DNA from: Neelides folsomi
Lineage: Eukaryota; Arthropoda; Collembola; Neelipleona; Neelidae
Assembly (NCBI GenBank): GCA_034687125.1
Contig: JAQGBZ010000084.1
Location: forward strand, 1-64,000
DNA: 64,000 bases
Direction: 5' to 3'
Shown here: positions 22,801-50,567 of the stretch, piece after piece
Position numbering within the stretch: position 1 is the first letter of the stretch
Layout of the letters: every line of letters begins with the position of its first letter
Program-made: the position numbers and the translations under genes
Notes under the pieces: generated by a model
What the model was told of the DNA's origin: nothing
Seen by the model: the letters and a program-made list of their open reading frames with translations, nothing else
Databases searched by the model: none

Positions 22801-24639
22801 AGCTTTTATTCCATAATTTCATTTCCTCTCCCAAGCCTTCAAGGTATAAAATAGAGAATCTAATCATGTCTTTTCTCATAGGAGACACCATCGGACCACC
22901 CGGGATGACCAACGGCGAAGGTTTGGGTCTCGGGGCGGGAGTTCCGGGCCCGCCCGCTCCTCCGATCGCCCACGGGGCGGGAGTTCCGGGCCCGCCGGCG
23001 CCCCCGATCGGCCATGGGGCTGTGAGAGTCCAAAGCACCCGAGAACCTGTAGGAGTATCCGGAGGGGCGAAGAACGAATGTGCGGGTTGCGGGAAGCGGA
23101 TCACGGACCGATTTCTCCTCAAGGCCCTTGACATGTATTGGCACGAGGATTGTCTCAAGTGCGGCTGCTGCGACTGTCGTTTGGGCGAAGTGGGCTCCAC
23201 GCTCTACACCAAGGCCAATCTCATCCTCTGCAAACGGGACTATCTTCGGTAAGTTTGGGTAGAATTAGCAAAGAAAAATGGGGCCTAATACATCAAGCTT
23301 TAAAGAGCTTAATTATTATTATTCTTTCATTAAAAGGCGAATGGGGAAAAGTGGAATTTTTACGGGAGCGTAAACAAACTAATTGAAAACTCACAAGTAC
23401 AATAACTCACTGTCAAAAACACGAAGTGAATAGGCCCGGCGCGTTTCTATCCCAAATGGGCTCGTTATTAGCTTCTTCCCCCCATCCGATGTGGACTGAA
23501 TCCAATGTGTAGCAATTCACCAATTACTTTATGTAAATCTGAATTGGTTTTTTCTCCCTGGGCGTGTATAGGGTCTATACAGACCTCTCGTTTAATGAGT
23601 CCCTCTCACTCCGTTTCCTCTGGCTCGGGCGTCTTTGGCTAATTAGCTTTTAGGGACACTCTCCCCATCTCGCCCATCTCTAAACCTCATCAATTCGCAA
23701 TGCATAGAAACTATCACACCGGTTTCATTAACTCTTCTCAATTACGGAACCGCCAGGACCAGACACCGCCCCTTTCGCCCAATTCATCACCCAGGGACTA
23801 ATTGATTCTTGGCAGGTTGTTCGGGAGCACTGGCTACTGTGCCGCTTGTTCCAAAGTCATCCCCGCCTTCGAGATGGTCATGAGAGCGAGGAACAACGTG
23901 TATCATCTCGAATGCTTTGCCTGTCAGCAGTGTAACCACAGGTCAGAATTTAATTCTCTTTCCCAAAATTCGCCCATAATAAATCATAAAAACAATTTTA
24001 TTATTTTAAATATAACAAAACCAATATTGTATAATTATGATACTTATAGAATACATGTAGAATTACAATACCCTGTATATCAATTTACCATAATTATTAC
24101 ATTAATACTAGGTATATAAATATTTATTAAGTGTTTCACAATGTATTTATGAATATGGTATTTATGAATATTTATCCATAAGGTTTTGTGTTGGAGATCG
24201 ATTTTACCTATGTGAGAACAAGATCCTCTGTGAATACGACTACGAGGAACGGATGGTTTTCGCAAACATGACCTACAGCCCTGGAAACCTGGCGATCCTG
24301 AGAAGGCAAGTGATATTACAATATCAATCAATGTCAAATCATTCCCATTTATTTAATCATCCGGGAAAATTGTCCCAATTGTGTTCCGTTGTGTTTGACA
24401 CGTGGAATGAAAGTGATTTGATTTCCCACAGTAGCAACAACCAAGAGGGGAAGACGGGAGGTTCATCTCCGGCCATGACCACGACCAACAACGTTGGGTT
24501 CAACAATTCAAGCGGGAGCAGCTCGCCCAAGTTGCAGGCCCTTAGTCCTTCCTCGACCATGTCTCATCTTCACCATTCGCAGCCGCATCTCCTTCATCAC
24601 CACATTCACCCGCCGATCGCCCAGCGAACAGCAACGTAA
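16850..24639 (+). CDS. Bx: LIM-only protein gene A (Beadex/dLMO, LMO1/3-class rhombotin), whole gene model
   Basis: Model: join(16850-16889, 22882-23248, 23816-23941, 24183-24305, 24432-24639), 864 nt including the TAA stop, 287 residues. Every junction keeps frame. The protein has a Gly/Pro-rich N-terminal region of about 85 residues, then two LIM modules: LIM1 from CAGC through HEDC to LILCKRD, and LIM2 from CAAC through HLEC to ILCEYD. All eight zinc ligands of each module are visible. A Ser/Asn/His-rich tail follows. There is no homeodomain or other DNA-binding domain. In the family, LMO proteins act in the nucleus by binding Chip/LDB and limiting LIM-homeodomain complexes such as Apterous-Chip. 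At 287 residues it is longer than vertebrate LMO1/3 (about 156), because of both tails. A paralogue lies in opposite orientation at 45088-50567. LMO identity is near certain; the first exon and the tail splicing are less sure. Confidence 0.93.
20342..20623 (-). other. Unrecognised 93-codon reading frame with an Arg-Glu dipeptide run
   Basis: Antisense to gene A's first intron. From the ATG at 20623 to TAA at 20342-20344 the frame is open and ends in an Arg-Glu run of about 11 residues followed by AMQNK. The run comes from a 12-bp DNA period (GGAACGGGAACG / GAGAAC variants at about 20361-20392). A Pro-rich patch ([10 protein letters not shown]) lies in the middle. Codon choice varies within the repeat, but that also fits a simple-sequence tract read by chance. 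An internal CATAAAG|GAG could serve as an acceptor. I recognise no domain. It may be a coding exon of an unknown antisense gene or a chance frame across a microsatellite. Confidence 0.22.
20893..20916. repeat. Short perfect hairpin, 9-bp stem
   Basis: TGTAAGTAT at 20893-20901 and its exact reverse complement ATACTTACA at 20908-20916 flank a 6-base loop. It lies in AT-rich intronic DNA of gene A. No function can be assigned, and an arm this short can arise by chance. Confidence 0.4.
22882..23248 (+). CDS. Bx: Gene A exon 2: Gly/Pro-rich N-region plus LIM1
   Basis: Begins after the acceptor TTTTCTCATAG and ends at TATCTTCG|GTAAGT. It encodes the variable Gly/Pro N-region with two 14-residue repeats, then the whole first LIM module up to the Arg codon of RDYLR. 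LIM1 zinc ligands are CAGC, HEDC, the two Cys of CGCC, and C..D of LILCKRD. The intron falls in phase 2 inside the Arg codon; as I recall, vertebrate LMO1/LMO3 genes have an intron at the same RDYLR/LFG point. An ATG at 22866 is in frame but overlaps the acceptor tract, so it is probably intronic. If a transcript started inside the previous intron it would be the start of a shorter isoform, 279 residues. Confidence 0.92.
22932..23015 (+). repeat. 42-bp tandem duplication inside gene A exon 2
   Basis: Two adjacent 42-bp units, 22932-22973 and 22974-23015, are nearly identical and very GC-rich. In frame they encode [14 protein letters not shown] and [15 protein letters not shown] partial third copy (GGGGC) follows. 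The period is a multiple of three, so copy-number change keeps the frame. The product is a short Pro/Gly-rich linker ahead of LIM1. Gene B has no counterpart. Confidence 0.95.
23249..23815 (+). other. Gene A intron 2 (567 bp, phase 2)
   Basis: Donor CG|GTAAGT and acceptor TTCTTGGCAG. It separates LIM1 from LIM2. The corresponding position in gene B has no intron. I see no further feature in it. Confidence 0.9.
23816..23941 (+). CDS. Bx: Gene A exon 3: first half of LIM2
   Basis: Encodes the end of the Arg codon, then [11 protein letters not shown] and on to CQQCNHR: the first zinc finger of LIM2 (ligands CAAC and HLEC) and the start of the second (CQQC). Acceptor GGCAG|GTT; donor CACAG|GTCAG. 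Phase 2 at both ends, 126 nt. All residues are the same as in the gene B product. The match to insect Beadex over this segment is essentially complete as I remember that protein. Confidence 0.96.
23942..24182 (+). other. Gene A intron 3 (241 bp, phase 2)
   Basis: Very AT-rich, GTCAGA...CCATAAG. It sits at the CNHR/FCVG boundary, where gene B also has an intron (4,054 bp there), so this position is shared and probably ancestral. Confidence 0.9.
24183..24305 (+). CDS. Bx: Gene A exon 4: second half of LIM2 and start of tail
   Basis: Encodes [19 protein letters not shown], which completes LIM2 with the C..D ligand pair, then [10 protein letters not shown], a segment shared with gene B, and finally a gene-A-specific stretch SPGNLAILR. 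Acceptor ATAAG|GTT. The donor reads AGAAG|GCAAGT, a consensus GC-type 5' splice site. It joins in phase 2 to the next exon to form an AGT Ser codon. If the intron is retained, translation runs on through it without a stop. Confidence 0.9.
24306..24431 (+). other. Gene A intron 4, GC-AG type, 126 bp, open in frame
   Basis: Begins GCAAGT and ends GATTTCCCACAG. Its 126 nt make 42 codons with no stop in the host frame, so retention would insert 42 residues (starting RQVILQYQ) instead of truncating the protein. It is AT-richer than both flanking exons and has a good acceptor, which favours a real intron. Spliced and retained forms are both coding-competent. Confidence 0.7.
24432..24639 (+). CDS. 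Bx: Gene A exon 5: Ser/Asn/His-rich C-terminal tail and stop
   Basis: In the frame set by AG|T the exon encodes [16 protein letters not shown], then a Ser/Thr/Asn-rich stretch, then a His-rich end ([15 protein letters not shown]) and QRTAT with TAA at 24637-24639. Codon choice is GC-rich, like the LIM exons and unlike the flanks, which supports coding status. The tail is low-complexity and has no known domain. It shares no obvious similarity with the gene B tail. Confidence 0.85.
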
Positions 24640-25390
24640 CGAATAAGCGGGAGCGGACAAATCCCACATGGAGGCTCATCGACTCACGCATCAAAGGAAA
24701 CCATATAATCAAATGTATACTCGGATGCTATGTAGGATACGTGTGTCTTTATATATTAGGAACCTATCTGAATCAATATCTCTTTACTAGGTTAAGAGAG
24801 GTAACTGACGTGTATACGATCTCCGATATACTGGAGGAAGGGCGTAATTGGTTCTACATGTCCGTTCGGGCTTCTTTGGAATAAATTGGAGAGGATTCGC
24901 TAATTAAATAATTGATTGGAAAATGTGTATAATAGTCACATGGTCCGGGGATGAAGGGGGCGGGAGCTGTTTGTTCATCTTGAATATTAAGGACACGAGG
25001 GAGTGGGTGGTCCGGAGGACTCGCGTTCCCCAAATTAATTAAATGAATGAATTAATTAATCTGTCAATGGTGAGTTGAAGGGGAAGATGAAGAGAGTCCG
25101 TGTCCGGAGATTACACTCGTTTCAGCTCCAAAGGAGTGAGGAGTGAAATATGTGACTGTCCGTTTATCATAATTGGAATCCTTGGGAAAGTTGGCCGCTA
25201 ATTCCGCTCCTCTCGCCCTCCTCCTGCTTAATTTACAGATAAATTCAATTAGTGGGAGAACCCCTCTTTGATCAAATGATATCGGAGAGACATAGATCAT
25301 GGCAAGAGGCTCATTACCATTCCAGAACCTCACATGTCGGCGACAATGAACAAAGTTCACTCACTCTCCCATTTACCCATTTATAATCCT
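24640..25390. other. 3' flank of gene A
   Basis: Mixed composition, presumably 3' UTR and immediate downstream DNA. Contains the AATAAA at 24880. No other gene is seen. Confidence 0.5.
24880..24885 (+). terminator. Candidate poly(A) signal AATAAA for gene A
   Basis: The first canonical AATAAA I see after the gene A stop, about 240 nt downstream. A GT-rich stretch (AATGTGTATAAT) follows about 40 nt later. This hexamer is common by chance in AT-rich DNA. Confidence 0.3.
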
Positions 25391-28300
25391 CCCGTTCAAA
25401 GGTTTATAAGTACAAAACCACGTTTCTCATTCTTTCAATTATCCCAATAAATACAAACGAACATGAAACACATTGATTCGCAAGACCTCGTTTCAACTTC
25501 TTGGTCCTCCCAACCACTTCATGTGCTGACACCACAAATTCCTCCAGACACCACACGCCAAAACACACTCGTCTGATTATACAAGAACCAAAAACAATTA
25601 CAACAGACACATGCAAATAATGTATTTAAAAATTATTCTTAATAATTATCTATATAAATACAATGATGGCGATATGGCGAATCAATATTCTAACAGTTTC
25701 AAAAACCCTCCCAAGGCCTCTCTCTCCTAACCAGAGTTATTATATAACCACAATTGGTTAAATTCCAATTCCCTTGTATAATAATCGTTATAATTAAGAT
25801 AAAAAACTCCTTCATGGCCCTTATGCACGTTAGCTTTAACAATAATTGTCTTTGCCTTTAAGTTCTTTTTGAGTGTTGGACAAATAGTAACTTGAAATGG
25901 TCATGAAATCAAAACCCAAGTCACAATGCGAAAATATTTGAAAACGGAGTTTAATGATCAGAAGTGAAGAAAAGAGAATAATGTACATGTACCTACATTA
26001 TTTAAACTTAATGTTTGGATGTGCGGAATTGAAGTCTACGTAGAAATAATTTATTTACAATGGGTTTATAAAATAATACACATGAACGATTCTTTTCCCT
26101 CGGTCCTTAAAAACAAATGTATACGATGAGTCATTATATTGTGAAATTAACATTAAAATTCTTTCTTAAACATGCTGAAAAAAATTATGTAAATGGAGAA
26201 AAATGTATCGTTGAATGTTGAAGCTATTGTAATTTATTATAATTACCTTTGTTACAATGCTATTAGATGTACACTCTGTGCTACTGGATATTTTTAAAAA
26301 TAAATCCGATCAATTGTTGCATCATTATGTCTTAGGATAATATTACGCAAAATATTAAAGATCTTTTTAGGATATAGTTTAATAATTTATATATGAAATT
26401 ATTAATCTTTATTAAATACCTACGTATAATATATATAATCATATATAGATACAATTAATATCTAGTTTATCTTCAATGTATACACTTATTATACGAAATG
26501 GTTCATTCTTTAATCATGAAATTGTTTATTATTTATACCTACTTCTATACCTATAATACTAAATACATATAAATATAATGTATGTAATAAATATAAATAA
26601 ATGTGAAATTAGAGTACACCAATAAACGATTTTGTTTTCTCTTCACGAATGATTTGTAAATAACTAAAGCATTCAATATTTTTCTCATTAGTCGAATACG
26701 ATGATCTTCTGTACCTCTATTAAATTTATAAATAAAATGCATGTTTACCGTTATATAATAACTATATATTAAACATTCTCTAATAAAGAAATATCTTTAA
26801 ATATTCAAATTACTGACTAGTTATTTACTTTAAACGTATTCAATGTAAATTTTTAAAACCATTCACATTTATTTATTAAAAATATGATTCAGTATGTTAT
26901 TTAAGACAAGATTCTCGAGCGTGACTCATTAAATGCTTTTTCTTTGTCAACGTGAATTGTAAGCATTTCTTGGATTCAATCATAATAAATAAAATAATAA
27001 GAATTATATAATTATGTAAGTAAAAGCTGTATAAATGTGAAATTATTTAAATAGTATAATTAGTAATTGTTTCTAGTTGTATTGCACATATAGTTTGTTA
27101 ATAGAACTTCATTGAAAAATGAGAAAAATGTTTACATGTAAAATTGGATACCTAGGTATGTATGTGTGTAATTAATACGCACATTAGGTACCTATAGTAA
27201 TTATGATTAGAAGAAAAATGAACACGAGAGGTAACTAATATTTAAATTAATTTAATCCTTGAAGAAAATGATGTAAAGTTGAAGGCGAATGTGCGATCTT
27301 GGATTTCTCATTTTGTATGGGTGATAAATTCATCATAATGTACAAGTCATAGTTGTTAATGACTCGAATGAATATTAAAAAAAACTTTATGAGACTCCTA
27401 GTAATCAATGTATTTAAATAGTCAATTTACGAAATAATAATTTATAATTTTCACTTAAAACACAATAATTTATCATTTAAAAATTCATATTAAATATTGC
27501 ATTCATGACTTTTGAGGTTTTGGTTTTGATCATGTAATTTGAATCATTTCTAATAATAATGGACAAAAGAGTTGATAAAAAGATTAAATGTCGTCTAAAA
27601 ATGATTGATTCATTATAAAAATTATTTCATAATGCTATGGAATAATAAATCCCGCTTGAGCCAGTTTTGTTTATTTTTTATTTCTATTATTTTAAAAATA
27701 TAAGTAGAAACATACAATATGAGATGGATAATTTTTCAAGTTTAGATTTTGGTTTGATTTAAGAGTCTGTAATTGGGTAATAGAGGAAAGATGTGTTCAA
27801 CAACCTGTATGTAATGGATAATGTTCAAGTTGAGTATAAGTAGGATAATAAATGATCATATTCCGTAACATAATCAATTCCATTTCGAAATAAAAAACAT
27901 ATTATTATTTTCATGGATATTTTTTATTGAAAAATGATAGTTAAAGTTAAATATTTAAGCTATCAAGTTTTCACTAATCAAGTTCAGCCTTATAAATACT
28001 TATATAAATATCGGCATGTTGCTTTTATAGCTTCAAATAAATACAAAATACGATACAATACATACACGAATATGTATGTTCATATACCTTACATGTAATT
28101 ATTTGTATTTAAGTATATTTCTTACCTATATAGGTACACATACAGGTAGTTCTTTACATAGAAACTTAACCAGCTTTAAATGTCCATTAAATGTACTGTT
28201 AATAGAGATACTTTTTATATCTTTCTTTCTTACAATAAAATCTTATATAAAATTAGAATATAAATTATAAGTTAAAATGGTGAAAAGTTTTAAGTTATGT

Positions 28301-28500
28301 GAAATAAAAATACTTTCATAAAAGAGCACTTGGTTGATAATTTAATTTCTTCCATCATTGGATTTTGAAAAGGGATAAAATTTAGGTGGGTATTAAAGCT
28401 AATAAAATAAGTTTGCAAATTTCCTTTTTACAGTCCTAAATAGACGAATAGACTATAAAAAGTTGAATAAGAAGGGTTAAAGTTGAAATGAGATTTGTCC
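25391..28500. other. AT-rich gene-free block
   Basis: Very AT-rich, with many TAGGTA/TACCTA words (for example TTAGGTACCTATAG near 27184 and ACCTATATAGGTA near 28124). No recognisable gene, repeat family or RNA. Confidence 0.6.
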
Positions 28501-30950
28501 GGATTTATTGTTTTATTCGAGCTGTTGGATTTTCTGGTAGGTCAGAGGAGTTTTGAGAGTTTGTCAAAGAATTGAAATTAGGAGGGATCGAGCCGTTTGA
28601 AGGAGGAGAAATTGGAAGATGATCATGGAAGTTAAGTGAGTAGGGGAAGATAAAAGAGGACGAGATATTTGGAAAGTTTGTGGTGAGGGAAGTTGGGAGT
28701 ATATAGAGTTTGATAGGCAATTGGTTGTAATGAAGTTGTAATGGGTTTGATGAGTTGGGAAAATGTAATGATCATTTGGGGAAACATTAACCAGGATTTC
28801 TCATTTAGACTTCCCTGCCTCCAGGCCTTCAGTTGGATTCCCTTCATACTCCCACAAACTTTTCTCCTCCAATCCCTTCCAAATCCTCCATGCATCACTT
28901 CGGCTCAATCATCTCATTTGCAATCTAGGACAAATAGGAGGTTGTGTGTGCGAGACTCCCTTCGCAATCAGTCGAGGGGCTCTAATAACAACTCAACCCT
29001 AATTGTTCCAAAGCCTCCATTTGTCAAAGGATCCTCCTCAATTACCCACACTTTTCTTAAATGCCCATCATCACTCACTCTCAAGAACCTCTTCCACAAA
29101 TTAGCATTTCCACATCATTCCTCTCTTAATTCCCTCCTTTCCCTTTAAATGCTCTCTCAAGTCCTTTAAACCATTTGTTATTAAAACTATTCCTCCTCCC
29201 TTTTCCTCCCAATGCCTTCAATCTTTACACCGCCAACTCAATATGAACGCCTTTGCTCAATTCATTTAATTCAAGCTCGAAATGATCCAACTTGGGCAAG
29301 GTTTTTAATCTCATCGATTGAACCATTGGAAGAAAGGACCTGGTTTGGATGGGGAATTTAAACCATAATTTCTGAGGGGGTAATTAAGGAAGATAAGTTT
29401 GGGAAAATATTCATTGTATTGTGGCTCGGTCACAATGGGCAGATGAATGGAGAGAACTCTGAAGTGAGTCCCAGTGGGAGAAAGAAGCGACTAATAATAT
29501 TAAGAGTTTCTCAAGTTTCCCTGTCTCCGAAATGATAAGATCTCTTTGCCTCCACAAATCTTTCCTCGAAAAGTTGGGAGTCCCTTGGAATCGGAGGTAA
29601 TTGCTGTAGAAATGAGCTTCTAACTTATATTTCCCAGCCATTTGTCCCTCCCTTTGTTTTATGCCCTTGGAGACTAACACAATTAGACGTTGAGTAATGA
29701 CGCTTTCCTCCTGACGACGGAGCTCAAAAACCAACTTTCTCAGTCGGTCTCAAAAGTTAAACTTTTCATTCCTCATCATTTCCCGATGTTCCTACAGGTC
29801 ACCCAAGGCGGGGTTTTGAGTGGGGGGCATTGAGGCGGGTCGCCATTGCTCACACCCACGGCTCCAATTTGAAAAGACAAATGACTCAATTCCTTCCGGT
29901 CAGGGATCGTTCACTCGGGCTAATTGCAAAGTAAATTGATCTACAGCTCTCTCAACTTGATACTTTTATCAAACAAATCGTCCCATTAACTTCATTGGCA
30001 ACCTCCGCGCGTTCCCAATATTCCTCGGATTGAGGGAATCGGGAATTGAACTTGTTTTTAAAAGGTTCGAAGGTTCATTGAGGGTGAGTAATTCTCTTTT
30101 AATGGTTTATGGAAATGTAGTTGGTGAGGAGGAAAAAATATAAAGTGACAGGTTTGTGGTCCCTGCTGAAATATGGAGAATCTTGTATCAATAGATAAAT
30201 GGGGAATAAAGCGGCGGGCAGGGATGAATAAATGGAAGTATGGAGATGACAGGCGGCCCATGAAAGAGAGGGTGGAGGGTTCCATTATTAAATTATCCTT
30301 TATTTCCCCGCTTATTGATGATTGTTCATTTATCTCCATTTGAGTCTCCGCACCCGTTTCTCTCCTCCCTCGCTCTCAACGACCACGACCCATCATCATC
30401 CCACGGTCAAATGTATTCTCAGACCTATCTGTGAGAAACGTCGACAGCTCCCGCTCTCTGACACACGCACCACTCTGGAGCGGATCAAGCTCACAAAGGG
30501 GATGGATGACTCCGGGACTCATGTGGGGATCTCTCAAATGAGAGTCAAATGAGGAACTTAATGAGGATAAGTTAAAATTGAACGCTGCACTTCACTCATT
30601 GTGCAAAAGAGAGGGTTCCCCAGCACAAATGAACCATCAACGGTTCGAGAGAACAAGAGACCATTTATCCCATCTGCGAACCCCAGGATTCTTCCCATTT
30701 TAATCTAATTACATGGGCTGTACATGTACTTGCTAAATCCACTCCTGGATTCCATATGTCTTTCATTTTACCCCGACCCTCACTAAATAAATACTGACAA
30801 TTGTATTGATCCCCAAGGGGAAACAAACTTTCTCTTCCCACTCACATAATCACTTTAGATTCACCCACATAAGGAATCATTTAGGTCTTCATACCAATAC
30901 CCTTAGATTATCGCCATGTATTGGATACTTATATTGTAAATACATTGTGC
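28501..30950. other. Gene-free block of intermediate composition
   Basis: Sharp rise in GC relative to the preceding block. Open frames on both strands (28741-29148, 29411-29734) show no domain. Nothing else recognised. Confidence 0.5.
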
Positions 30951-31760
30951 ATTGATAAAGTGCTAACTAACTATTAACCATGTACGTATCCTACATAGGG
31001 TACATATGTTATGTTATCTAATATTTATATGTATTTATGTATGCACAGTATACTTAGGTATTTATGAATTATATGAAGTTAGGTAAATAGATGTTATACA
31101 GAAGTATTTACATCTAGGTATGTATATACAATGTGCTTCATTTTTCATGTTAAAAGTCAAATTTTCATGTGAAGTTTTGGTGTAAAGACGTTTATCTTCG
31201 GATGTTATGTCATTTACTTCTATTTATGTCATAATTCTCATAATACTTTTTCACGTTTGATGTGTTATGAATTTATATATGGGGCCATTTCTTACCCATT
31301 TACGATTCAAGCACTATGAGCCATGAGGGTTTAAAAAGTAAAGTCATTGGAAGTAAAGTTTCGAGAACAGGCATAATTTGTTATAGGAAAGAGGAAGGAA
31401 ACGTGAAAGCGAAGGTAAGTTGATGGGAGTAAAAACTCAATGTGGAAATTCAAAAATCTCATTTAGGAAAGGAAAAGATAATTTTATATACATTCAAAAA
31501 CCAAGGGTTAAAAGTTAAAATGTTTAAAAATGATGCAAAAGTATGAAAATATTACTCAAATAATCAAAGTTAAACTAAAAGTATTAAATCTTGTAAATTC
31601 TTATAATTGACTACACATATACCATACATTGTATACATAATACACATATAAAGCATCTTATAATTAATAATGTTCTTAAATGTTCTTTCAGTCTATGGAT
31701 GTTTTTATAAGGAAGATTAATTGATTTAACTTAAGTATACTTAAATGATTTAAGCAAGGT
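30951..31760. other. AT-rich block with TAC/TAGGTA words
   Basis: Short AT-rich segment with TAGGTA/TACATA words. An AAG|GTAAGTTG string at about 31410 resembles a donor site but has no plausible exon before it. No gene recognised. Confidence 0.5.
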
Positions 31761-34700
31761 ATAACATATGAATTTATTGGATTTGTGGGGGAAAGTGAAT
31801 CACTCATCTGTTGAATTATCCTTGGTACCTTTTGAGTCGACGTTTTCCTTTGTCCCTCCACTCCATATCTCACTCTGGAGTCATTTTGTGAGAAATGTGT
31901 CTTTTTCCCTTCTCATTCCATTATTACATGAGTTACATACTCATTTATCTCAATGTCGTACTTCGTTTTCTCCACTGGATGAAAGCAAATGTTCCTCATT
32001 TGATGACCCGCCTTTTCCCCCATTTCCGCCAAAATCCATTCCTTTTTATTGCATTCCCTCCTATTACGTTATCTATAAGTAAAAAAGGGAAAAAGTCCAT
32101 TTGTAAAATACCCTCATGACATTTCGACATGGTGGGTGTTGTGTGAGGGGAAACTAATGCTGGGGAAACCTTTTCTATCTGTCTCCATTTTCTACGGGGT
32201 CGACCTGAGGCCGAAATTCAATTACTAAGAATCTATCTCAATCAAATTATTATTTCAAGATCCTTCCGGTCAATCGGAGGAGATGAAGAAGAAAACGAGG
32301 CCTATTAACAATTACTTCTTCCCTTAACCCTATCTTTTCCTTCATCCACTTCCCTTCATTTGATTCACTTTACCTCCCTTGGCTTTTTATCATTACGTTA
32401 TTTATATAGTCGATTAAGGAGATATACACTTAGTAGATATCATACATTTATCTTATGGTGAATTATCATAATAATCGCATCAAATAATTCTCTTTATTGA
32501 GGGCCGACATTAATTAAATATTATTTTGGCCGATAAGAGAAATCGAATTTTTTTTATTGTTCCCTTTTGAATGAAAGGGCCAGAGATGGAAAGATAGGAA
32601 AGGGAGTCTTTTTGTTGATGATATCTAAAAATGGGTGTAAATGAAAAAAAATGATGAAATTTTTATTCGACCCGTCGGGTCTAACTGAATTTGTGTGGAA
32701 GTCATCTGGAAAGGTGTCAATATGAACTGTCGCTCCTCAACTGTGAACCAATGACTTCGGGGCCTTGCGGACGATGAGGAGTAAAAGGAAGTGATAGAGG
32801 GGGAAAAAGAGAGCAAATAAAAAGAATAAACATGTCCCTACACTTTGAACTTCACTGATTCTTTATAACTTTCTCTCTTTCACAGCTTTTCAAGAGATGA
32901 TAATTGGAGTTTTGTTTAACATTTTTTACCAACACAGTATTTAACTGAATTAAAAAGAACTAGAATTTTTATCCTAAAAATTTTCTATTATTTAGAATAT
33001 CATTATTACAATTACTTAAGACTGAAATATTTAAATAGTTAGAAATAGTGTCGTGAATAATTAAGTAGTAAAAGGAAACAAAATTTGTGAACAATTCTGA
33101 GAAATTAATGGACATTTGTGATCATGCAAATAAATACGTATTGGTTGTTTTGCGAATAAATGGAATTTATAGCTCAATAGAGATCTCAATTTCCATTTGG
33201 TAAGGAAGAGGAGAATGGAAAGGAGGAATTAAGCCGAATTACAATTTGAACCTAAAGTCCTTAAATATATAAACGCAGTTAATTAAAGTTCCCACGTACA
33301 ATTAACCGGGGATTGATAAGGACATGGACTTTTCCTAATGGAGAGTTCAGAAGGGAGAAGGCGTATTGATCGGCGAGGAAGCTGAATTTACTGTGTGAGA
33401 TTCCTTGAGAAGAACAATTACTAGCTAATTGAAGAGGTGCTTTGAGTAATAGATAGGTCCTTCCGCCGACCGTAATGGGGAATGGTAATTGAGAAGTCGG
33501 GAGAAAGTTTGGGAGTAATGAGCTTCCGCCCTCGGTTTATGCAAATGATCCAGAGGGAGGAGAGATATGGAGATTGGGGCAGATTGGGGAAAGAAGAGGA
33601 ATCTTCTTGAGATAATCTTCTGTGGCATCCCAAGTGCCATAATAGACACCTGCTACGATCTTATAATTCTCTATGTTCCCTACAAAGCCTAATCCCTTTG
33701 CTAGTTATCCTAAGCCGGCGTGTTCTACGAGGACGCTAACACTCACTTAGGACCGGGAAATGAGGAGGTTCATGAGCCCCTCATAAAATAATAAGGAAGA
33801 CGTTGAGGGGAGAAAAATGCCGTCGCGAGCCTAATTACTCACCCGGATACATCAAATGATCCAACGGCTTCCTCATGAGCGGGAAAAGACTTTCAAATTA
33901 CATTAGATTAACGATCATATGCTGCCAACAACAAACCCACTCATCCTTCCATGGAGAATTAAACTTCAGGTCCCATCTAATACACTTATCTAATCAACTT
34001 CATCCATAGAACTCCATAAGGATAATAAAATATATAAGAACAATTACAGTACACATACAATATACCATAATACATATCTAAAAAACCCTCTTTGCATTCC
34101 CACACCCCACTTGGTGAATTCTTTTACAATTTCCATATTCAGACCAATTTGGAGAGTTTTCATATACCAGAATGTGTATGGTACATATACATACTAATAT
34201 ATGTAACATGGTGATATGAAACAGAATTTTTTAAAAATTTGAGACACGTGTTTTTAATATGATATACTTAGTCCTTGGTACATAAAAGCCTTAGTGAATT
34301 ACTCGCAAGTGTGGAGATGTTGGATTCATGTCTTGTAGATCATTCAGTATATCTTCCATATGAGTCCATAAAAGAAGGGTGAATATTCTTTGGTATAACT
34401 TTTAGTTAACATGGACCTTAATCTACTCATAAAGGAGAAAGGAAGAGATGAGGAGTTTTTTTAATTCCTCCCAAGGAGATTCGTTCCTTTCCCTCCTTTC
34501 AACTTCTTTAATCTTTCTTTTATAATGAAGGGAATTTCCCCTTCTTTTTTTAATTAGCCTCTTTTCTCCTCTTTCCACTCGATGGACGACCTTAATAAAT
34601 ACACACTGAATATATCTACCACCCAGGTCCCCTGTATTTAAGGTTGACATTCATTAAAATCTTTATACCAATTGAAAATTTCCTGTACAAAGTAATTAAA

Positions 34701-40100: not shown

Positions 40101-40400
40101 AGGGAACCCCTTTCATAATAGCTCCACGGCTCTTATCTTCTTGGCAGTTAGTTTCGTGTCCATTCGACGGCCCAATCCCCATCTTCCCCATCATCATCAT
40201 CATCCTCTTCCCGCAGGAAGAAGCCCTCAAAACCACGACATTACACACGCCGCTGGCAAGGACCTCGGGGATATCTGTTTATCCCTTCACCCCGCCTCTT
40301 ACAGCCCTAAATCCACACCCGGTGAAAGATCTTGACCGACAGCCCAATCATTTTCACAACACTCTCCCCATTCTGGCTTTCATAAACCCATAATTCAGAA
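37161..40400. other. Gene-free block, mixed composition
   Basis: No recognisable gene. Short (CAT)n tracts occur near 38795 and 40190. Reading frames here are short or lack domain features. Confidence 0.5.
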
Positions 40401-43400
40401 AGCTCTCGGATAGAAAGGATTTCTATTATACAGGTTTAAAATACCTGTTTCTATAGATACATACTTAAGGAATATTTTATGATAATATTTGGAGTATGTA
40501 TTCATTTATTCTTATTAAATAAACTACATAAAGTAATTTATTTGTATTTCATAAACAAATCAAAATTTTAACCAACGTTAAATTAATATATTGATAACCA
40601 AATATCATTAATTTAAGCTCGTAAATAAAAAAAAACCCATTCTCAGTAATTGTTGTTTTGATCTGAATTAGTATTATAAATTCACATATTACTTTAGTTA
40701 TATAGTATTGTAAGCATAATAAGTTCCAATATTGAAATGTTATTCCAATGTGGATTATTTTCTCTTTGAGAATTAGATGAGTTTGGATATCACACCTCGA
40801 AATCTGTAATCTGTTCATTGTTTCGTTTAATTTTATGCATTGTGGGAAATGGAAGGGGAGGAATTGGAGGATGAACCGAGTTAAGGGATTATAGAGGCGA
40901 AGAATGGATGGGAGGTTTATGAGTTTCATTTCATGATTTAGAATTGAGATTGGCGAACCAATTAGCCGGGAGAGGTACGGATAATTGCAAGGGGGTCTTT
41001 GGATGTAAATCAAATGATTCTCCTCCCAAACTACTCCCGCTCCTTTATAATTAAATACCCTTTATTACAACTGATTTATTTTCGTCCACTCATTCAACGT
41101 GATCTGACTCCCTCGTTGTATTTAGATTACCTGGATTAAACCGGACGGTGTTCTTCCTCCAATTGACCGTGTACAAAATCTACCCAGATCTCCATCCCTA
41201 AATTGGCTCCGGAATATTTATCTTCTAAACAAATCTGTCTTGTTTTAAATGCTGCCCATTTACATGTGAAATTAAAAAATGAGCTATGAGTTCTACACGT
41301 GTATCCACAATCAATTTAATTACCATAACTTGTAGGCAATTTAATTGGCATTTCAAATGAGGCATCTTTAATTAAATTTCCTTCAGAAAAAGTTCAAATC
41401 CTTCCTCCAATTCATATTAGTATCTAATAAGATATGATGCATATATAACTAGGTATATCATATATTTAACTTTTATATATAAATATGAATATTTAGCGAA
41501 AGAAAATGATTAATCGATGACAAACACTTCCTCGATTCCTTCAAAGTAAGGAAGTGTAATTAGATTTGGTATGAGATTATTCCCCTTTCACACCTCCTTG
41601 TCACTCGAAAGAGAAGGTCAAAATAATTCATTCTTTAATTCATTCTTCTTTCCCCGCCACCATTCATTTGGTTCGGGAAGGGAACTTGGGCTCAATTACA
41701 TTACTTGAGGAAACAATTCAAAGGGGAGGTTCAAAGACTCAAAGGGTGAAAAATCGTTCAATTTCAACAACCACCCAATGTTTTAAATCCTCTCACAATT
41801 TACAATGGTCGATGTTGCCTTGGTAGGTTCTGTTTTTAATTTGATTACTCAACTTGATTATTACGAGATAATCCATGTGGGTGGGTGAGCTCGGATGGAG
41901 ATCTCTCTGAGGTATTATTATTATGCATTCTTCTCCTAGTCCAATTATCCAACATTTCATACCAATGTTGTTGATCTTCCACTCACCCTCATCGGCCCAT
42001 CGCTCCCCATCTCTTTACATTAATAAAGTGGTGGGTCGTAAATTAAGAAATTACTCGTTCGGAAATATGCAAGGAAAAAAAATACCCGCCAACTCCAACT
42101 CCAATGAGAATATGAATAATTGAGATCGGAAAATTGGCCCTGTAATTTTCTTTCACTTTATCCAACAACGAAAGTTATTTCCATCATTTTTTATTATTCT
42201 TTTATAGTTTATAAATTTTTTATTTACTCAAATAAAGGACAAAATATACGTAAAAGTTAAGTTTATATTTTATATATGCATACATACTTAATACATACAC
42301 ATATAAATACAACAAGTAAATCATAATAGTATGCCTTAATTTGTTATACATAGTTTTCTTTACAAGCTAGGCAATATTGACGCTATATAATCGACTCCCT
42401 CACGCGCAGTGAATTTACATTCGTAACTACATGAAAAATCATGTTTATCCTTTATTTCCACCCTTCGACCTTTCTTAAAAAAGAATATAAAATAATTCCT
42501 TTAACAATTTTCTTTTTTATACATGGAATTATGTAAAAAGTTTTTGGGTTAGGTTTAAATCGATACACGTTGATTTAAATTTATACATTCATTGATTGTT
42601 CACTTTCTTCATTATTGACGTTCATTAACTAGGCATTTGGTAGTACTCGAACCAATCACGTTTCTTAAACGAGTCACCCAAACAAAAGTCAAGATATAAA
42701 ATTGAGTATTGGAGATATGTAGAACTTATCTACCTAAATACCATATCTATGAATCGTACAGTATGATACTCTGCTGACAATGAGTGAGTATGATGGAATG
42801 ATGTAATGTGTATTTACAATGCACAAAAACAAAAAAAATATTCAAAAGACAATTTTGGTTTAAATGATTTTTCATGTCATTAGTTAATGTAATGACTAAA
42901 ATATGAACATGGGTAGGTAACGTGTCTATTTCACTTCTAATCATTCAAAGTTAATTTCTCGATGGCATTAACAAAGAATAAAAAATGCGCATTTATGTAA
43001 AAAAATCTTGGTAAATTAATTATTAATTAAGATTATATTTATTGGTTTATACAATGAACGACTTTTTAGGTAATAAGTATATAAGTAAATAGTAAATACA
43101 TGAGGATATTATTTATACTTTAATATTATAGAATATTTATATATGATGCATCTGAATATTACTTTAATTGTATACAACGTTCGTTTGGTATATTATTTGT
43201 ATATTGAAAACTTGAACTAAATATTATTAATAAAGCTACCAACAATATTGTTAGCACTATTTAAATTGTAGTTGAATCACAAATTATTGGAATTTAATTA
43301 AATTGTACAAAGTTTTTGTATTTATGATGTTCAATGCAAGTCGAGTCGATTATAAGGTACAGCTTAATTAACTTACACCCAAGGATACTATTAATTATAT

Positions 43401-43700
43401 ATCATTACACCTTAAATGGCCAAGTGTTTAACTTATTATTATAAAAATTGATTAAGGGGTGGATGACTAACTAGCATCATAATTTCTCACTTAACATTCT
43501 ATCTATTTCACATTGAGGAAAAGAATTTGCGAAAGCGAGAATTTGCTCATTGAGTACACGCTTGAAAATGTAAGTTGAGTCGTAATGTTAGTTTTATGTA
43601 CATGTAATAACTATTTATTGGAAAAGTATTAAAAAGAACAGTGTATGTAATAGCTATACTCTACAAGTTTGGGCAGAATCTTATCGTATACACATTTTTT
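40401..43700. other. AT-rich gene-free block
   Basis: Mostly AT-rich with TATATA/TACATA words and a brief moderate-GC island at 40.85-41.2 kb. A 154-codon - strand frame (40549-41013) has an AT-driven Ile/Leu/Asn-rich composition and no domain. No gene recognised. Confidence 0.5.
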
Positions 43701-45087
43701 CATTTGGGAAGTGATTGGAGATCCTTACACATTGGCCGAACGGTGGTGAGATTGTAATTGTAATTGGAGATTAGGAAGCGGGAGTGAATGGAACTCCATT
43801 TGGAATTAGCACCTCCAGGAATGGAAAGGTAGGCGGCGTTTCCCATCTGGATCAATCTCATGAATCACGAGTTTTGATATATGAATCCATTCCCCAATTT
43901 CATATTCGAAGGAGTGAGTTACAATCACAAGGAGATTCGTACAATAACATCATGTTAATGGGCAAATCCCCCATGTTGGATTCCTCGAGTTGGCGATTAG
44001 TTTTGCTTTCGGAGCAAAGGTTACCTGGGAAGCTAAATATATGGAATACCCTCCGGGGTGAGGATGCTATGCGGAATATTCATATATGGACCATATGGGA
44101 TGAATATTACTTGTAGATAACTATTTATTATAAGAGCCAGCCTAGTTCCCAGCAGTAGGAGAAGGAGAATGTGAGAAGTCAATTTCCCCTTGGTGTAATA
44201 AATCCGAAAAGTAAAAAGCGGGTCCGAAATTTCTCATGAATATCATAGTCATGGAAGGGAATAATATTGGGAAGTTCTCATTCATTACTATGTATGGTTG
44301 TCTGGTGATGGCGGGTGGTGTTGGGCCAAAAGAAATTCCCTCCTAGGAGACCTGCGAAAGGGGTGAGGACTGCCGTTAACCAACGATCAAATTGAACTGA
44401 CCACTATTGTTCGTTCAAATATTCATAATCCAATCTCGGAGAGTTAGGGAACATGAAGGGCGCGAGTTGACTTGTGAATACAAAGTGATCCCTCATCCCG
44501 CTCCTTAACTTTCCCCCATAAATTTTCCCCTCACGCACACCTGACTAGGTTTGGGGAGGTGATCCCCTCCAGATTCCTCCCTAATGGCCCCACACCAAGG
44601 CTCATCGGATGAGGAGCGACATTAGAATTAAACCGAGGTCGCTCCCCATCCCAATCCCATTTAAATGATTACCTCGAGGAAATTGTAAAACTTTCCCTCT
44701 CCCCTTCCTTTTAAACTGATTGCCTCCGCAAATTGGGTCTTATCAATATCTCCTCACCATAAATCCACGCTTGCTCAATTATCCACTTCCTCCAAGTAAT
44801 GATGAGAGGTGCCATCGACCCAGGTCTTAATTACTCCCTCAAAAAGGTGAGGAGGAGAAATGACATCATTTCCGTGAGAGATTATGAATCCAAATTTCCC
44901 CTTGGTTGGTGGGAGATAATTCCGTGGAATCCAAAGTCTAACCTACGAACCCTTCTAATATTAGTGTATATGAATATTATCCACTTCTACTTGTTTACTC
45001 TTGAGTGGGGAGGGAGGTCGCCTTCACTCCGTGCGTTCCCGGCTCACATGGAACTTAGAACTGTTCCAACAACTGGGCAAATAACGG
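43701..45087. other. 3' flank of gene B, GC-richer
   Basis: Presumed gene B 3' UTR and downstream DNA. The + strand frame at 43784-44116 has no recognised domain. Composition rises again as gene B is approached. Confidence 0.45.
44124..44129 (-). terminator. Candidate poly(A) signal for gene B
   Basis: TTTATT on the + strand reads AATAAA on the gene B strand, about 960 nt after the stop. It is the first canonical hexamer I noticed downstream. Closer variant signals are possible. Confidence 0.2.
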
Positions 45088-45234
45088 CTAATCTGATGTA
45101 ATAACTCCATTACTCCGGACTCCTTGATGTGAGCTACGCACGTCACCAATCCCTCCGCCGTTCACGTGAAGCCCAGGGTGACCAAGTCCGACCATGTTCC
45201 GCGAGTCCACGAGCGGCGAGCTGCTTTGCGTGTT
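45088..45234 (-). CDS. Bx: Gene B exon 4: Gly/Ser/Asn-rich C-terminal tail and stop
   Basis: From the acceptor GTTGATAG the phase-0 frame encodes [18 protein letters not shown], then [10 protein letters not shown] and a Ser-rich end, with TAG at 45090-45088. It is 147 nt, GC-rich like the other coding exons, and stop-free until its end. No known domain. Gly/Ser/Asn-rich tails are usual for insect Beadex. If this exon is not used, the protein would end within the preceding intron, 14 residues after NHLQ. Confidence 0.62.
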   Translation of the reverse strand, partial: NTQSSSPLVDSRNMVGLGHPGLHVNGGGIGDVRSSHQGVRSNGVITSD

Positions 45235-48200
45235 CTATCAACACCAAATGATCAAATCCCGAGTTTAATTATTCCAACCGGAATCAAACGGGCCCAATGA
45301 GCATACCTGGAGATGATTCCCTTGGCGTTGCTGCTTGAGCGGGTGGATTGGCCCGTTTGAAGTACCCGGGTTCCCTCCGGCACTCATGTTGGCAAACACC
45401 ATCCGCTCCTCGTAGTCGTACTCGCAGAGGATCCGATTATCACAAAGGTAGAATCGGTCACCGACGCAGAACCTATAATGAGAAAAATGACAAAGTTGAT
45501 TACCACTGATCGGGTAAGTGATCCAATGATAACGGATTTAATCCGCTTGGGCGATGGGAAGACTAATAATCCACTCCACTTGTGCTCCAAGTCAATATGT
45601 GCGAGGTTTTGTTGGAGCGGGGAAAGGGCCCCTGGCAAACCATGAGATTAAAGAACTTCATTTTTTTATATCCGGAACCTGATGAACAATCCCTTCAGTC
45701 CCATATAAGGTATAACATAGGGAGAAATTCATATCATCCAATTTCCATCTCACCTCAATAATCAAAAATGATTGGAGGAATGAAGAACTATTAATAAGAA
45801 TTTTTCTCCATCTCCTCCACGATCAAAACTATTCATGGAAATTTGAATCAATTTTCAATAAACTTATTTATTTTTACCACCCAACTTCGCCTCGGGTTTT
45901 CCCCTTCTTGTATAATTTAAATCTAAATGAATATGCCGATATTGATGAGATTCCAAGAGTTTTCTCCATGATTTGAATCGCTCGAGTTTCCGGGATTTGA
46001 TCAAAAAATTCAAACGGATTTGATTCAATTCTCCATCTTGATTCTACACATTGAATCCAAATTTCATTTTTATACATTTTTCATTACATTTGTCCTATCT
46101 TCCCTTTCACCAAGAATCTTCCATTTCTTCAAGTATAACAATTTATTTGACAAAACATTCAACTTATCAAAAATACCTTTACAATTTCACAATTAAAGGA
46201 CAATGCTACACTAAGCTTTTGGAAGACAAATTTTATATATATATATATACCATGGTATATATTGATAACTACAAAAAGAACATAAATTTCGTATTTATCA
46301 TGCCTAAAAAGAGTAAATTGAATAATACATAAAAGTATCGTATATCCATAATGTAACATGATCCATAAGCAACATGATTTCAAATTTCCAAAGAATGGTA
46401 CCCTTTTCGAATTCAATTTATGTAAGAAGGGGGTTATTTTAATATTTGCCTTTTCGAGGCCAGAGGAACGAGGCGGATTGATATGGGATGATAAGGGAAC
46501 GGGAATGGGTTTATGATGGCCGTAATGAGGAGTCGGTGGGAGTGCCAATCCATGAGCCACTGACTCCCGTCACACTCCATTGCGGGGCGAACGGAGGAGA
46601 ATGGAAAGAGAAACGCGGGAGCTCTCAATGGGCCAAAAATAAATGACTCCCGATCCCAATTGAATAACCACAAAAGACGGCAATAAATTAGTCATCGTCC
46701 GGAGTCGAGGACGTTTTCCACACATTGGACGCAACCTCCTCACTTCCCCACACTTCCTTTATCCATCCGTCGTCCGGAATTCAAACAAATGGGGGGCGGG
46801 TTGAGCAGCTCACTCTCACACGCTCTTCAATGAGGAAGGACCTGAATGGGCTGTGGAATACAAAACCCCTTTCTTTAAAAAAACTCTTTCGCTCATACAC
46901 ATTACAACCGACTTTGTGACTCCTTCACTTCCACAATGACCATTTGAACTCAATACATAACATAACTAACTACTTACTTTATATACACACACTATACTCC
47001 TATTAACAAACTAAATCTTTCAATCCCAATCCCAATAAATTAAAGATAAAAGAAGAAAAAATACAATTTTAAAATTATACCAATAAATAAAAAATCTAAT
47101 ACCTGTTAAGCTATACTTATTATTGGTAACACTTTAACCTAACAAAACCTAACCCAACCTTGTAAGTGCAATGTTTATCCTAACATATACAAATTGATAT
47201 TAAAACATATATTTGTTGGCTATGGTTCCATAATACATATAATACTATGGTTCTATGATGGTATGAAAATATTCCAACTGTGAATTGGTGTATTTAAAAT
47301 GTGTAAAATTTTCTCGCATAATAAATTACCAAGCTAACTATCACTTGAGAGCTTTAATTGTTATTTGCCTTTCTGCGTTTGAATGAACTGATGGGGCTCT
47401 TGAGCCGAGAAACAATAAACATGCCTGGAGAAATAAAAAGAGAGGAACTGGGGAGTTATTAAGAATTAGCCTTATTTGGTTGGGAATTGGGGTTGAGGAA
47501 GGATTGGAATAATAATTACACATTAGTTAGTAGGAAATTAACTCTTTCTCTCCTAAGCCTCTCCAAGTGCTTTTCCTCTTCAGAAGGGAGGGGGAGGGGA
47601 ATGATTCCACACACAGTGTTTCTTTCCTCTTGAGAACCCGTGTGGTTGGGAGTTATTGGCGTGTGGAATAATTGGGAGATGAAGGACCACGCGAGAAAGT
47701 CGTTGAGCGAACCCTCCGTTGACCGAATACTCAACCCGTGGGCTTATTATTATTATTGGGAATATATAGGAAATGACTAAGAAACGACATAGAAGTTTAT
47801 AAATGAGAAATTACTCACTTTTAAACAACAATTCCACGGTCAGCGTTGGGAAAATAGGGGACGGGGACCTTTTGTCAAATCAATTATTTTTAATTGGAAA
47901 GTAAATACAAATAACTAACAAATTTCCGAGAGACTCCAACTCTCACTGTTAATTATTTTTCCAGACGAATTCTCATCATTTATGATGATTAATTGGCCCT
48001 ATGCACTCTCATTGTGCAAATATTCGTTTTCATCAAAACATCTGTGTTTTATGTACATATAACTTTGCAAAGCAGAAAATAATAAGATTATAGTGACCCT
48101 TAAATTTTAACTATCTTACTTTAATTCTTTTAAGCAATTCGCATAGCCCATTTTAGTACATTGTTAATTAATTCTCATAAAAATAAAAAACAGGCAGAAT

Positions 48201-50566
48201 GTAAAATAACTATGGGAATAACTACAATCGATATTTCCCTTATACTCAGAGACTCAAATTTGAGAAAAATTTTTCGTTGATGGGTCGAAAGAGAGATTTA
48301 AAGTAAACTTATTGCAACCGTTATCTTTCTTTTATTATTGGCAATTGGGACATTATAAGGATTTGGAAAATGGCAATGTCCACCATCACTGACATCCCTT
48401 GATTTATTTATATTTATTTTCTTAACCACGATGGTCTATAAAAGGGCGAGAGAAAGTCCAGAGTGAGTTATTTCGCAATGTTGGAGTGGCTGAGAGAGGA
48501 AATGGAGGAATTCCTTATATTAAACCACCAGGCCACTTATTCATATCTGGGAGAAATATAAATGGAATTGGACCATTTATTTGGAGGGATTGATGAGGAA
48601 GATGCAGGTAGATGTTGGGGCCCTTCGATTCATCTCGTTGAATGAGGGGATGCCCGATTCGGTCCTGGATTAGGCTTAAGACCGGGAAGAAGGATGAAGG
48701 AGATAGGGCCCGGTTTACACACCAGCGACACAGTCATCCCTCGTAATAATGGTAGAAGGCCTAATCCGCCCTCCGACCCACACGGAAAACCTCGGGCACA
48801 AGTCGGAGGGAAAAAGTCTGATGGCCAGCCGATACAAACTCGCCCTCGCACGTGATTCATTAAATGATAAATATCAAATTTTCAATTTTAATTTCCCAGC
48901 AATAAGTTTTTTAGGGAAAACGTGAGTTCAACAGTGAATCTGAGGAAGTGGATTATACAAAGTAGAGGGATATGATAAACCATGCATTACATTCACCATT
49001 TGAGCCTATTACATTAACTGTATACACAGAGAGACTTAAATGTGTCCCACCCTATACACTCTCGTCTCCATGCATGTAAAGTGAGTGTAGTTGGAAGAGG
49101 CAGGGGAGTTTGTCTACCAAAGTTATTGCCATCAGGGAGGAGATTAGGGTGCAATAAGTAATGGCCCTCGGCTTAATAATATCTTTTTCAGCGGCTTCCT
49201 CTCTCTAATGCTCTTTCCCTTCTCAACTCCTTTTCCTCATCCCCACCGCAATCTCCTCCCTCCCCTCTTATTACCTACAATTAAAATCTGGATCGATGAA
49301 CACGCCCAATATGAATGAATATCAATAAGAATCAAAAGCTCACAATGTTATTTACAACTTATTATAAATTATAAAGAATCTCATTCTCCCATTCTTAACA
49401 TACTCATACATATGAGTCATATGACCATTTTATTATCTGTATAGGTATGTAAAGTAAATGTTGGTTTATGGAATTGTATCCATATTGGATAATTAATAAT
49501 ATGGAATATGGGAGAGTTTTTTTTACCTGTGATTGCACTGTTGACAAGCGAAGCACTCGAGATGGTAAACATTGTTCCTTGCCCTCATGACCATTTCAAA
49601 GGCCGGGATCACTTTGGAACAAGCTGCACAATAGCCCGTGCTTCCAAACAACCTCAAGTAGTCTCTCTTGCACAGGATGAGATTCGCCTTGGTGTAGAGG
49701 GTTGAGCCAACTTCGCCAAGTCGGCAGTCACAGCAGCCGCACTTGAGACAATCTTCGTGCCAATACATGTCAAGGGCCTTGAGAAGAAACCTAAGAAAAA
49801 ATATGATTAATAATTAAGTTAGGTTAGGTTAGTACTGGGAAAATACATAGAGTTGGGTTGAGTTAATACTTCTCTAAGCTTCAAGTGGAATGTTTGAAAA
49901 TAAATGTCATCTAAAGATCGGTTCTGAATGTTTGTCCGATTTGCCCTCTTTTGGAATGAATATGAGTGGGAGGGGATTGGAGGGGAATTTACGTTGGCGA
50001 ATGTGGTGGCTACGGGGTCGGGTGAAATTAGCATTTTATATTCAGAGTAAGTGAGGGACGTGAGGTGAAAGGGAATCGGGGCAGCGATTAGGAAGGCGTC
50101 TATATAATGTTCCTCCAGTTAATTGTCGTTTCACTTGGAGCAGGGGGGATAATTGAATGAGAGGTGCGAGGAAATCCTTGGCCGGTCGTAACTTTCCCCA
50201 TTAGGCTCACGGAGCAATGGTGGGATGATGGAAAGAGGGGACAGGCGGACGGAGGAAGTTTACGGCGGCGGGCCGAAGACCAGACGGCACTCGAATAAAA
50301 CTTCCGCCCTTCGCCCCATCCCAGGAATCTGGGCGTGTGGAGCAATTTAAGATCCAACTTTGTCACTTTGCCCTGAGCCGACTTGAAGCATTAAGAGGAA
50401 ATTGCTTCAGTCCCTCTTTTATAGGGCCAATTGGCCGGGGGGAGATTAAAGGGGGAAACATCATATGTATGTATGTGGAGGGACACCTGTCAGTGATCTT
50501 CTTTCCGCAACCGGCACATTCCTTGGGAGCCTCCGGGTTCCCCACCTCCGTCTTCAGATTCATCAT
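45088..50566 (-). CDS. Bx: LIM-only protein gene B (second Beadex/dLMO paralogue), whole gene model
   Basis: Model: complement of join(45088-45234, 45307-45472, 49527-49790, 50487-50566), 657 nt including stop, 218 residues, frame kept at every junction. The protein starts [16 protein letters not shown], then LIM1 (CAGC, HEDC, LILCKRD), LIM2 (CAAC, HLEC, CQQC, ILCEYD), then [10 protein letters not shown] and a Gly/Ser/Asn-rich tail. All zinc ligands are present. From FLLKALD to CQQCNH it has the same 88 residues as gene A, yet about 37 codons differ silently. The few changes elsewhere in the LIM region are conservative (K/R, E/D). The role should be as for gene A: a nuclear co-factor competitor that binds Chip/LDB. 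The N-region is much shorter than in gene A and lacks its repeats. A non-coding 5' exon further upstream is likely, because the ATG lies directly after an acceptor. Confidence 0.93.
45235..45306 (-). other. Gene B intron 3 (72 bp, phase 0)
   Basis: GTATGC...GTTGATAG. Short, as is common in insects. It contains an in-frame TAA (AATAATTAA). The acceptor pyrimidine tract is weak. Its intron status is inferred from the phase-matched, GC-rich open exon that follows. Confidence 0.6.
45307..45472 (-). CDS. Bx: Gene B exon 3: second half of LIM2 and start of tail
   Basis: Encodes the end of Arg, then [29 protein letters not shown] and a gene-B-specific stretch that begins [11 protein letters not shown] and ends QRQGNHLQ. 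Acceptor TTATAG|GTT. Donor CTCCAG|GTATGC in phase 0. Compared with gene A the LIM2 end differs only by E/D and K/R. Reading on past the donor meets TAA after 14 codons, so an unspliced transcript would give a shorter alternative tail. Confidence 0.92.
46236..46248. repeat. (TA)n microsatellite
   Basis: A pure TA run of about six units within gene B intron 2, followed by ACCATGGTAT. Its length is likely to vary between individuals. Confidence 0.7.
48437..48445 (+). promoter_or_regulatory. Isolated TATAAAAGG box, antisense within gene B intron
   Basis: A textbook TATA-box string on the + strand followed by GC-richer sequence. I see no good initiator (TCAGTY) at the expected 25-32 bp and no recognisable downstream gene, only a 27-codon frame. 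A chance match is quite possible. Confidence 0.15.
49527..49790 (-). CDS. Bx: Gene B exon 2: rest of LIM1 fused with first half of LIM2
   Basis: 264 nt in one exon, from the last base of the Arg codon through [22 protein letters not shown] and CQQCNH. The LIM1/LIM2 boundary intron of gene A (at RDYLR) is missing here, so this exon equals the end of gene A exon 2 plus its exon 3. Acceptor TTTTTCTTAG; donor CACAG|GTAAAA. All 88 full codons translate to the same residues as gene A. Confidence 0.96.
49791..50486 (-). other. Gene B intron 1 (696 bp, phase 2), within LIM1
   Basis: Donor CAG|GTGTCC and acceptor TTTTTCTTAG. The end towards exon 1 is GC-richer; the other end has a TTAGG-type run at 49818-49832. 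No gene is seen in it. Confidence 0.9.
49818..49832 (+). repeat. Short TTAGG-type run (arthropod telomere-like unit)
   Basis: GTTAGGTTAGGTTAG, about two and a half units of a TTAGGT permutation, 26 bp upstream of the gene B exon 2 acceptor. Interstitial runs like this are frequent in insect genomes. It is weak support for arthropod origin and has no inferred function. Confidence 0.7.
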
Positions 50567-50567
50567 C
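50487..50567 (-). CDS. Bx: Gene B exon 1: start codon and first part of LIM1
   Basis: The acceptor TTCCTTTCCCAG ends at 50568. The exon then reads G, ATG ATG, and encodes [20 protein letters not shown] and on to GKKITD plus two bases of an Arg codon. Donor GACAG|GTGTCC, with GT at 50486-50485. An acceptor one base before the ATG means an upstream, probably 5' UTR, exon must exist. An upstream coding exon ending in phase 2 cannot be excluded. The intron after ITDR splits LIM1 and is absent from gene A, where ITDRFLLK is continuous. Confidence 0.9.

Follow-up and report, generated by a model that had tools for sequence, protein, structure and literature searches.

Two tail-to-tail Beadex-type LMO genes with nearly identical LIM domains and different tails in the collembolan Neelides folsomi

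The genome of Neelides folsomi contains two open and spliceable LMO paralogues, here genes A and B, that come from an old duplication. LMO proteins do not bind DNA themselves and serve as adaptors. We consider it highly probable that A and B are an old LMO pair with interchangeable LIM cores, in which both copies would be kept by their expression and by their different tails. The two genes were found in a window of 64,000 nucleotides (positions 1 to 64,000 of contig JAQGBZ010000084.1, assembly GCA_034687125.1), to which positions refer unless another contig frame is given. They lie tail to tail on one 212-kb contig, gene A on the forward and gene B on the reverse strand, with 20.4 kb between their stop codons, much as the earlier note on this DNA had described (tail to tail, about 20 kb apart).

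Gene A extends from 22.9 to 24.6 kb. An exon at 22882..23248 encodes LIM1 as far as KRDYL(R), preceded by a Pro/Gly-rich N-terminus, and ends in a phase-2 donor (CG/GTAAGT; here and below a slash marks the exon junction). A splice-acceptor-like AG stands directly before 22882, and the protein may be entered by splicing at this position or may start at a methionine at 22866 or 22905. A TATAAAA-like box at window positions 22845-22851 is found 21 bases 5' of one of these candidate start methionines and 60 bases 5' of the other; given this box, gene A may start at 22866 or 22905 without an upstream exon. The N-terminal coding part also harbors an in-frame 42-base tandem repeat (window 22931-23020, 2.1 copies), yielding two repeated peptide units. 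The core is interrupted by a 567-base, phase-2 intron in the Arg codon of YLR/LFG, after which the exon at 23816..23941 encodes the first half of LIM2, from (R)LFGS to CQQCNH(R). The end of LIM2, from (R)FCVGDRF, is encoded at 24183..24305, an exon that has a GC-AG type donor (AG/GCAAGT) or is read through. The spliced and unspliced frames of this candidate GC-AG intron near the gene's end (24306-24431) are both open, and exon coordinates give a tail after FANM of 80 residues, or 122 if unspliced. The last coding exon (24432..24639) encodes a Ser/His-rich tail and ends in a TAA stop codon at 24637-24639.

Gene B extends from 50.6 to 45.1 kb on the reverse strand. Its first coding exon (50487..50567) has an ATG at 50566 and an acceptor-like AG upstream, and ends in (R). 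A single exon (49527..49790) then spans (R)FLLKALD to CQQCNH(R), without the YLR/LFG intron. The end of LIM2 and the start of the C-terminal tail are encoded at 45307..45472, and the remaining tail at 45088..45234, the last coding exon, which ends in a TAG stop codon at 45090-45088; from the exon coordinates, the tail after FANM has 74 residues. The first intron of gene B contains two TTAGG units (window 49819-49828), which we take to resemble the arthropod telomere repeat. Both bounds that the earlier note had set for the pair coincide with exon edges in these models, 22882 following the acceptor-like AG of gene A and 50567 being the first base of gene B's first coding exon.

The protein sequence of the core is the same in both genes and its codons are not. 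From FLLKALD to CQQCNH, 87 of 87 residues are identical between A and B and 36 of the 87 codons differ, at 39 nucleotides, all of them silent; when the Arg that flanks it at either end is counted in, the core comes to 89 residues and 37 differing codons. A hand count of 88 identical residues and about 37 silent codons had thus been right within one. Of the 128 codons that span both LIM domains (CAGC to FANM), 54 differ silently and 3 by a replacement. The replacements (R/K, E/D and K/R) are all conservative, leaving 125 of 128 LIM residues identical. The dS between A and B depends on the method, being 0.96 (LWL85), 1.27 (YN00), 1.93 (ML) or 3.14 (NG86) as calculated in Biopython. Being spread between about 1 and 3, these values yield no date. 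Over the same 128 LIM codons dN is 0.010-0.024 and dN/dS roughly 0.005-0.025, which supports the notion, already put forward in the earlier note, that both LIM domains are under very strong purifying selection.

The silent sites of A and B are near saturation, because the 54 observed silent differences compare with about 63 expected in 125 codons when codons are drawn independently from the pooled usage of the A and B cores, itself a small sample. When the two parts of the window (1-35000 against 35001-64000) were compared by blastn with a threshold of E 0.01, four matches far beyond chance were obtained (best E 9e-37). All four are at LMO exons and reach no more than about 15 bases into the introns, and at this threshold introns, tails and flanks of A and B did not align. 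By eye, the two proteins share little in their N- and C-terminal tails except for short Ser/Pro-rich pieces.

The intron pattern differs between the copies as well. A phase-2 intron at the YLR/LFG place is common to gene A and to the LIM genes on contigs C29, C246 and C210 (junctions read by eye) and is absent from gene B, and was thus most likely lost in B. The intron of gene B at TDR/FLLK is present in none of these four genes, and may have been acquired by B or lost from A. The CNHR/FCVG intron is common to A and B at the same phase-2 place. The two differences in intron position agree with an old split; together with the near-saturated silent sites and the exon-only alignment, they bear out the earlier proposal that the duplication is old.

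Both proteins have the two LIM domains of an LMO, the LIM region of gene A being 3 residues off that of gene B. When the gene B LIM region was searched with phmmer, two tandem LIM domains were matched by an LMO4 chain (E 6e-47) and an LMO2 chain (E 3e-45), these matches spanning residues 1-121 or 1-123. Gene A is identical to LMO2 at 71 of 121 residues and to LMO4 at 65 of 121. By eye, no homeodomain follows the LIM domains in the tails of A or B, unlike in C246, which is a LIM-homeodomain gene. In a tree of 7 rows, without LMO1 or LMO3, A, B and LMO2 are grouped with support of 94/94, slightly short of the 95 that the program itself uses as its mark, apart from LMO4 and from the LIM genes on C29, C246 and C210. 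LMO2 and the C29 gene form long branches in this tree, and the order of A, B and LMO2 inside their group is not split out. With LMO2 as the sole LMO1/2/3 row, the tree places A and B in the LMO1/2/3 (Beadex-type) class. The LMO4 class is likewise LIM-only with two LIM domains, but A and B fall outside it; membership there, which the earlier note had named as the outcome that would speak against its reading, is rejected for both copies by their position on the LMO2 side.

At least 15 matches to the LMO core are found in the 75.1-Mb, 840-contig genome. The five on the contig of A and B have identities of 81-99%, as compared to 47% for the best of the others. The C210 gene, a LIM gene, groups with the C246 gene in the tree, and the C29 gene is not joined to LMO4. 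The latter gene (L020, C29 2001-12000) was named LMO4-like by eye, and its LIM2 stretch RAGMSHSGPNSQLVYHQKC is longer than that of LMO4 at this place. On C44, two matches to adjacent exons, which pass the family cut-off narrowly (E 2e-4 and 4e-4), probably represent the gene for the Chip/LDB partner. A search for relatives returned 6 pattern stretches in the viral contigs and 34 in the genome contigs, with none confirmed in either set.

Between the stop codons of A and B (24640..45087) no gene was recognised in the small part of the interval that was scanned. One long frame there (40552-41061) matched no Pfam family, and the interval gave no blastn match across position 35000 at E 0.01. Among 10 long frames of the contig searched against Pfam, one contains C2H2 zinc fingers, another has a Stn1_C match below its cut-off, and the remaining eight had no match. 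The zinc-finger frame (C84 97862-98596; L015 3862-4596) lies about 47 kb beyond gene B, and resembles ovo/shavenbaby. In Drosophila, Beadex regulation has been linked to miR-9. A miR-9-type seed has no site in the 3 kb 3' of either the gene A or the gene B stop, so that this Drosophila link is without support here.

Several other origins could be envisaged for such a pair. In an assembly of 840 contigs, a single locus might be represented by two copies, one of which could be an inverted haplotype. However, A and B are both placed on a single contig, they differ in 36 of 87 core codons, in intron positions and in tails, and only their exons align. Silent divergence, intron pattern and exon-only alignment rule out an artefact for the gene sequences, in line with the earlier note, and we give this explanation a negligible probability. 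Retroposition of gene B would account for the precise absence of the YLR/LFG intron that A and the three other LIM genes possess. It would not account for the CNHR/FCVG intron that B retains at A's phase-2 place, nor for B's two further introns; a retrocopy origin is largely refuted by this shared intron, and is in our view very improbable. Another possibility is that A and B are younger duplicates that were kept alike by repeated gene conversion while silent sites drifted in places. Inverted copies 20-27 kb apart could in principle convert each other, and the first 24 core codons have 6 silent differences, whereas the 93 codons that follow have 44 (Fisher P 0.06). Once the choice of stretch is taken into account by permutation, this clustering is not significant (P 0.20 for the sparsest 18-codon stretch, P 0.55 for the longest run), and silent sites close to saturation, unaligned introns and two differing intron positions mean that conversion would need to be old or very local. 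We regard a conversion history as improbable. Recent conversion of the core, which the earlier note had ruled out, finds no support given the near-saturated silent sites; this does not extend to conversion that is old or partial.

An old duplication is thus the preferred origin. It may have been inverted from the outset, as the earlier note proposed, or a tandem duplication that was followed by an inversion. The retention of both copies may be explained as follows. A and B would act as LIM-only adaptors that bind the same partners through interchangeable LIM cores, these partners being Chip/LDB and, through Chip/LDB, LIM-homeodomain, GATA or bHLH factors. In Drosophila, Beadex acts in this manner when it competes with Apterous for Chip. 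With LIM cores that are 125/128 identical, A and B are predicted to be nearly equal in binding, and selection on the LIM surface would hold each copy. Because the LIM cores are equal, a difference in expression is the simplest reason for retention: the pair would persist mainly through divided or dosage-sensitive expression, in differing places, times or amounts, with the different N- and C-terminal tails as a possible second cause. Conversely, the main difference between the copies might be one of protein activity rather than expression, the tails or the three LIM changes directing them to different partners. The unlike appearance of the tails is consistent with this idea, which the near-identity of the LIM domains and the seemingly low complexity of the tails oppose; we consider it unlikely, though worth keeping in mind.

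Other traits of the genome bear on the position of the host. A mitochondrial contig has the order I-Q-M-ND2-W-C-Y-COX1-L2-COX2-K-D-ATP6 (protein genes by eye), which we take to fit the ancestral pancrustacean order, assuming that the contig is not a contaminant, as it could in principle be. It has 22 tRNA rows, 21 of them named, with Asn not among these. The odorant-receptor family 7tm_6 has three matches in the genome (best E 8e-8), and the odorant-binding family PBP_GOBP likewise has three (best E 1e-4), all weak though over the family cut-offs. An insect odorant co-receptor is expected to score far higher than the best 7tm_6 match. The matches to the two families are possibly those of a hexapod, with which they are compatible. 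By themselves, these traits indicate a pancrustacean, perhaps a crustacean or a basal hexapod, and do not establish an insect.

The vertebrate proteins LMO1, LMO2 and LMO3, of which LMO2 was compared here, are of the same class as A and B, and are regarded as products of duplications within vertebrates. Drosophila has a single Beadex (dLMO) gene, encoding an LMO1/2/3-class LIM-only protein with the same expected partner, Chip/LDB. A and B differ from it in being two genes, arranged tail to tail and with different tails. The assumption that insects have one Beadex-type gene, made in the earlier note, does not hold in view of the two copies reported in Gerris, Cimex and Halyomorpha (PMC6249893, PMC8892508). 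The Gerris buenoi genome paper describes a duplicated Beadex, and notes that Cimex and Halyomorpha have a similar duplication (PMC6249893). RNAi against either Bx copy changes the bristles in Gerris, and leg length is affected for BxA alone; in Mesovelia, BxA gives no RNAi phenotype and is hardly expressed according to the text, although a figure legend counts defects (PMC8892508). A retained copy thus need not be active everywhere. The hemipteran BxA and BxB resemble A and B in forming an old pair of retained Beadex-type genes; how the hemipteran genes are arranged is not stated there. Beadex is also named in a mite, without a copy number (PMC6902594). In the literature searched on Beadex/LMO duplication, most of it surveyed superficially, no report of a tail-to-tail Beadex pair was found.

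A retained Beadex pair is thus an already known kind of thing, and what is new here is the arrangement; the A-B pair is possibly also of deeper origin. One could tentatively suppose that the pair was already present in an ancestor of early pancrustacean (or greater) age, that the hemipteran pair stems from the same event, and that Drosophila-type genomes lost one copy, a scenario that we hold to be unlikely. A and B are a clean natural pair, in which the core has hardly changed and nearly everything else has, making them useful for the question of why duplicated developmental genes are retained. Together with the hemipteran reports, they correct the notion of a single Beadex-type gene in insects and their kin. 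Should the pair be ancestral in pancrustaceans, two ancestral genes would have to share the functions now ascribed to fly Beadex, and if one copy was indeed lost in Drosophila-type genomes, work in the fly would have covered half of a two-gene LMO system.
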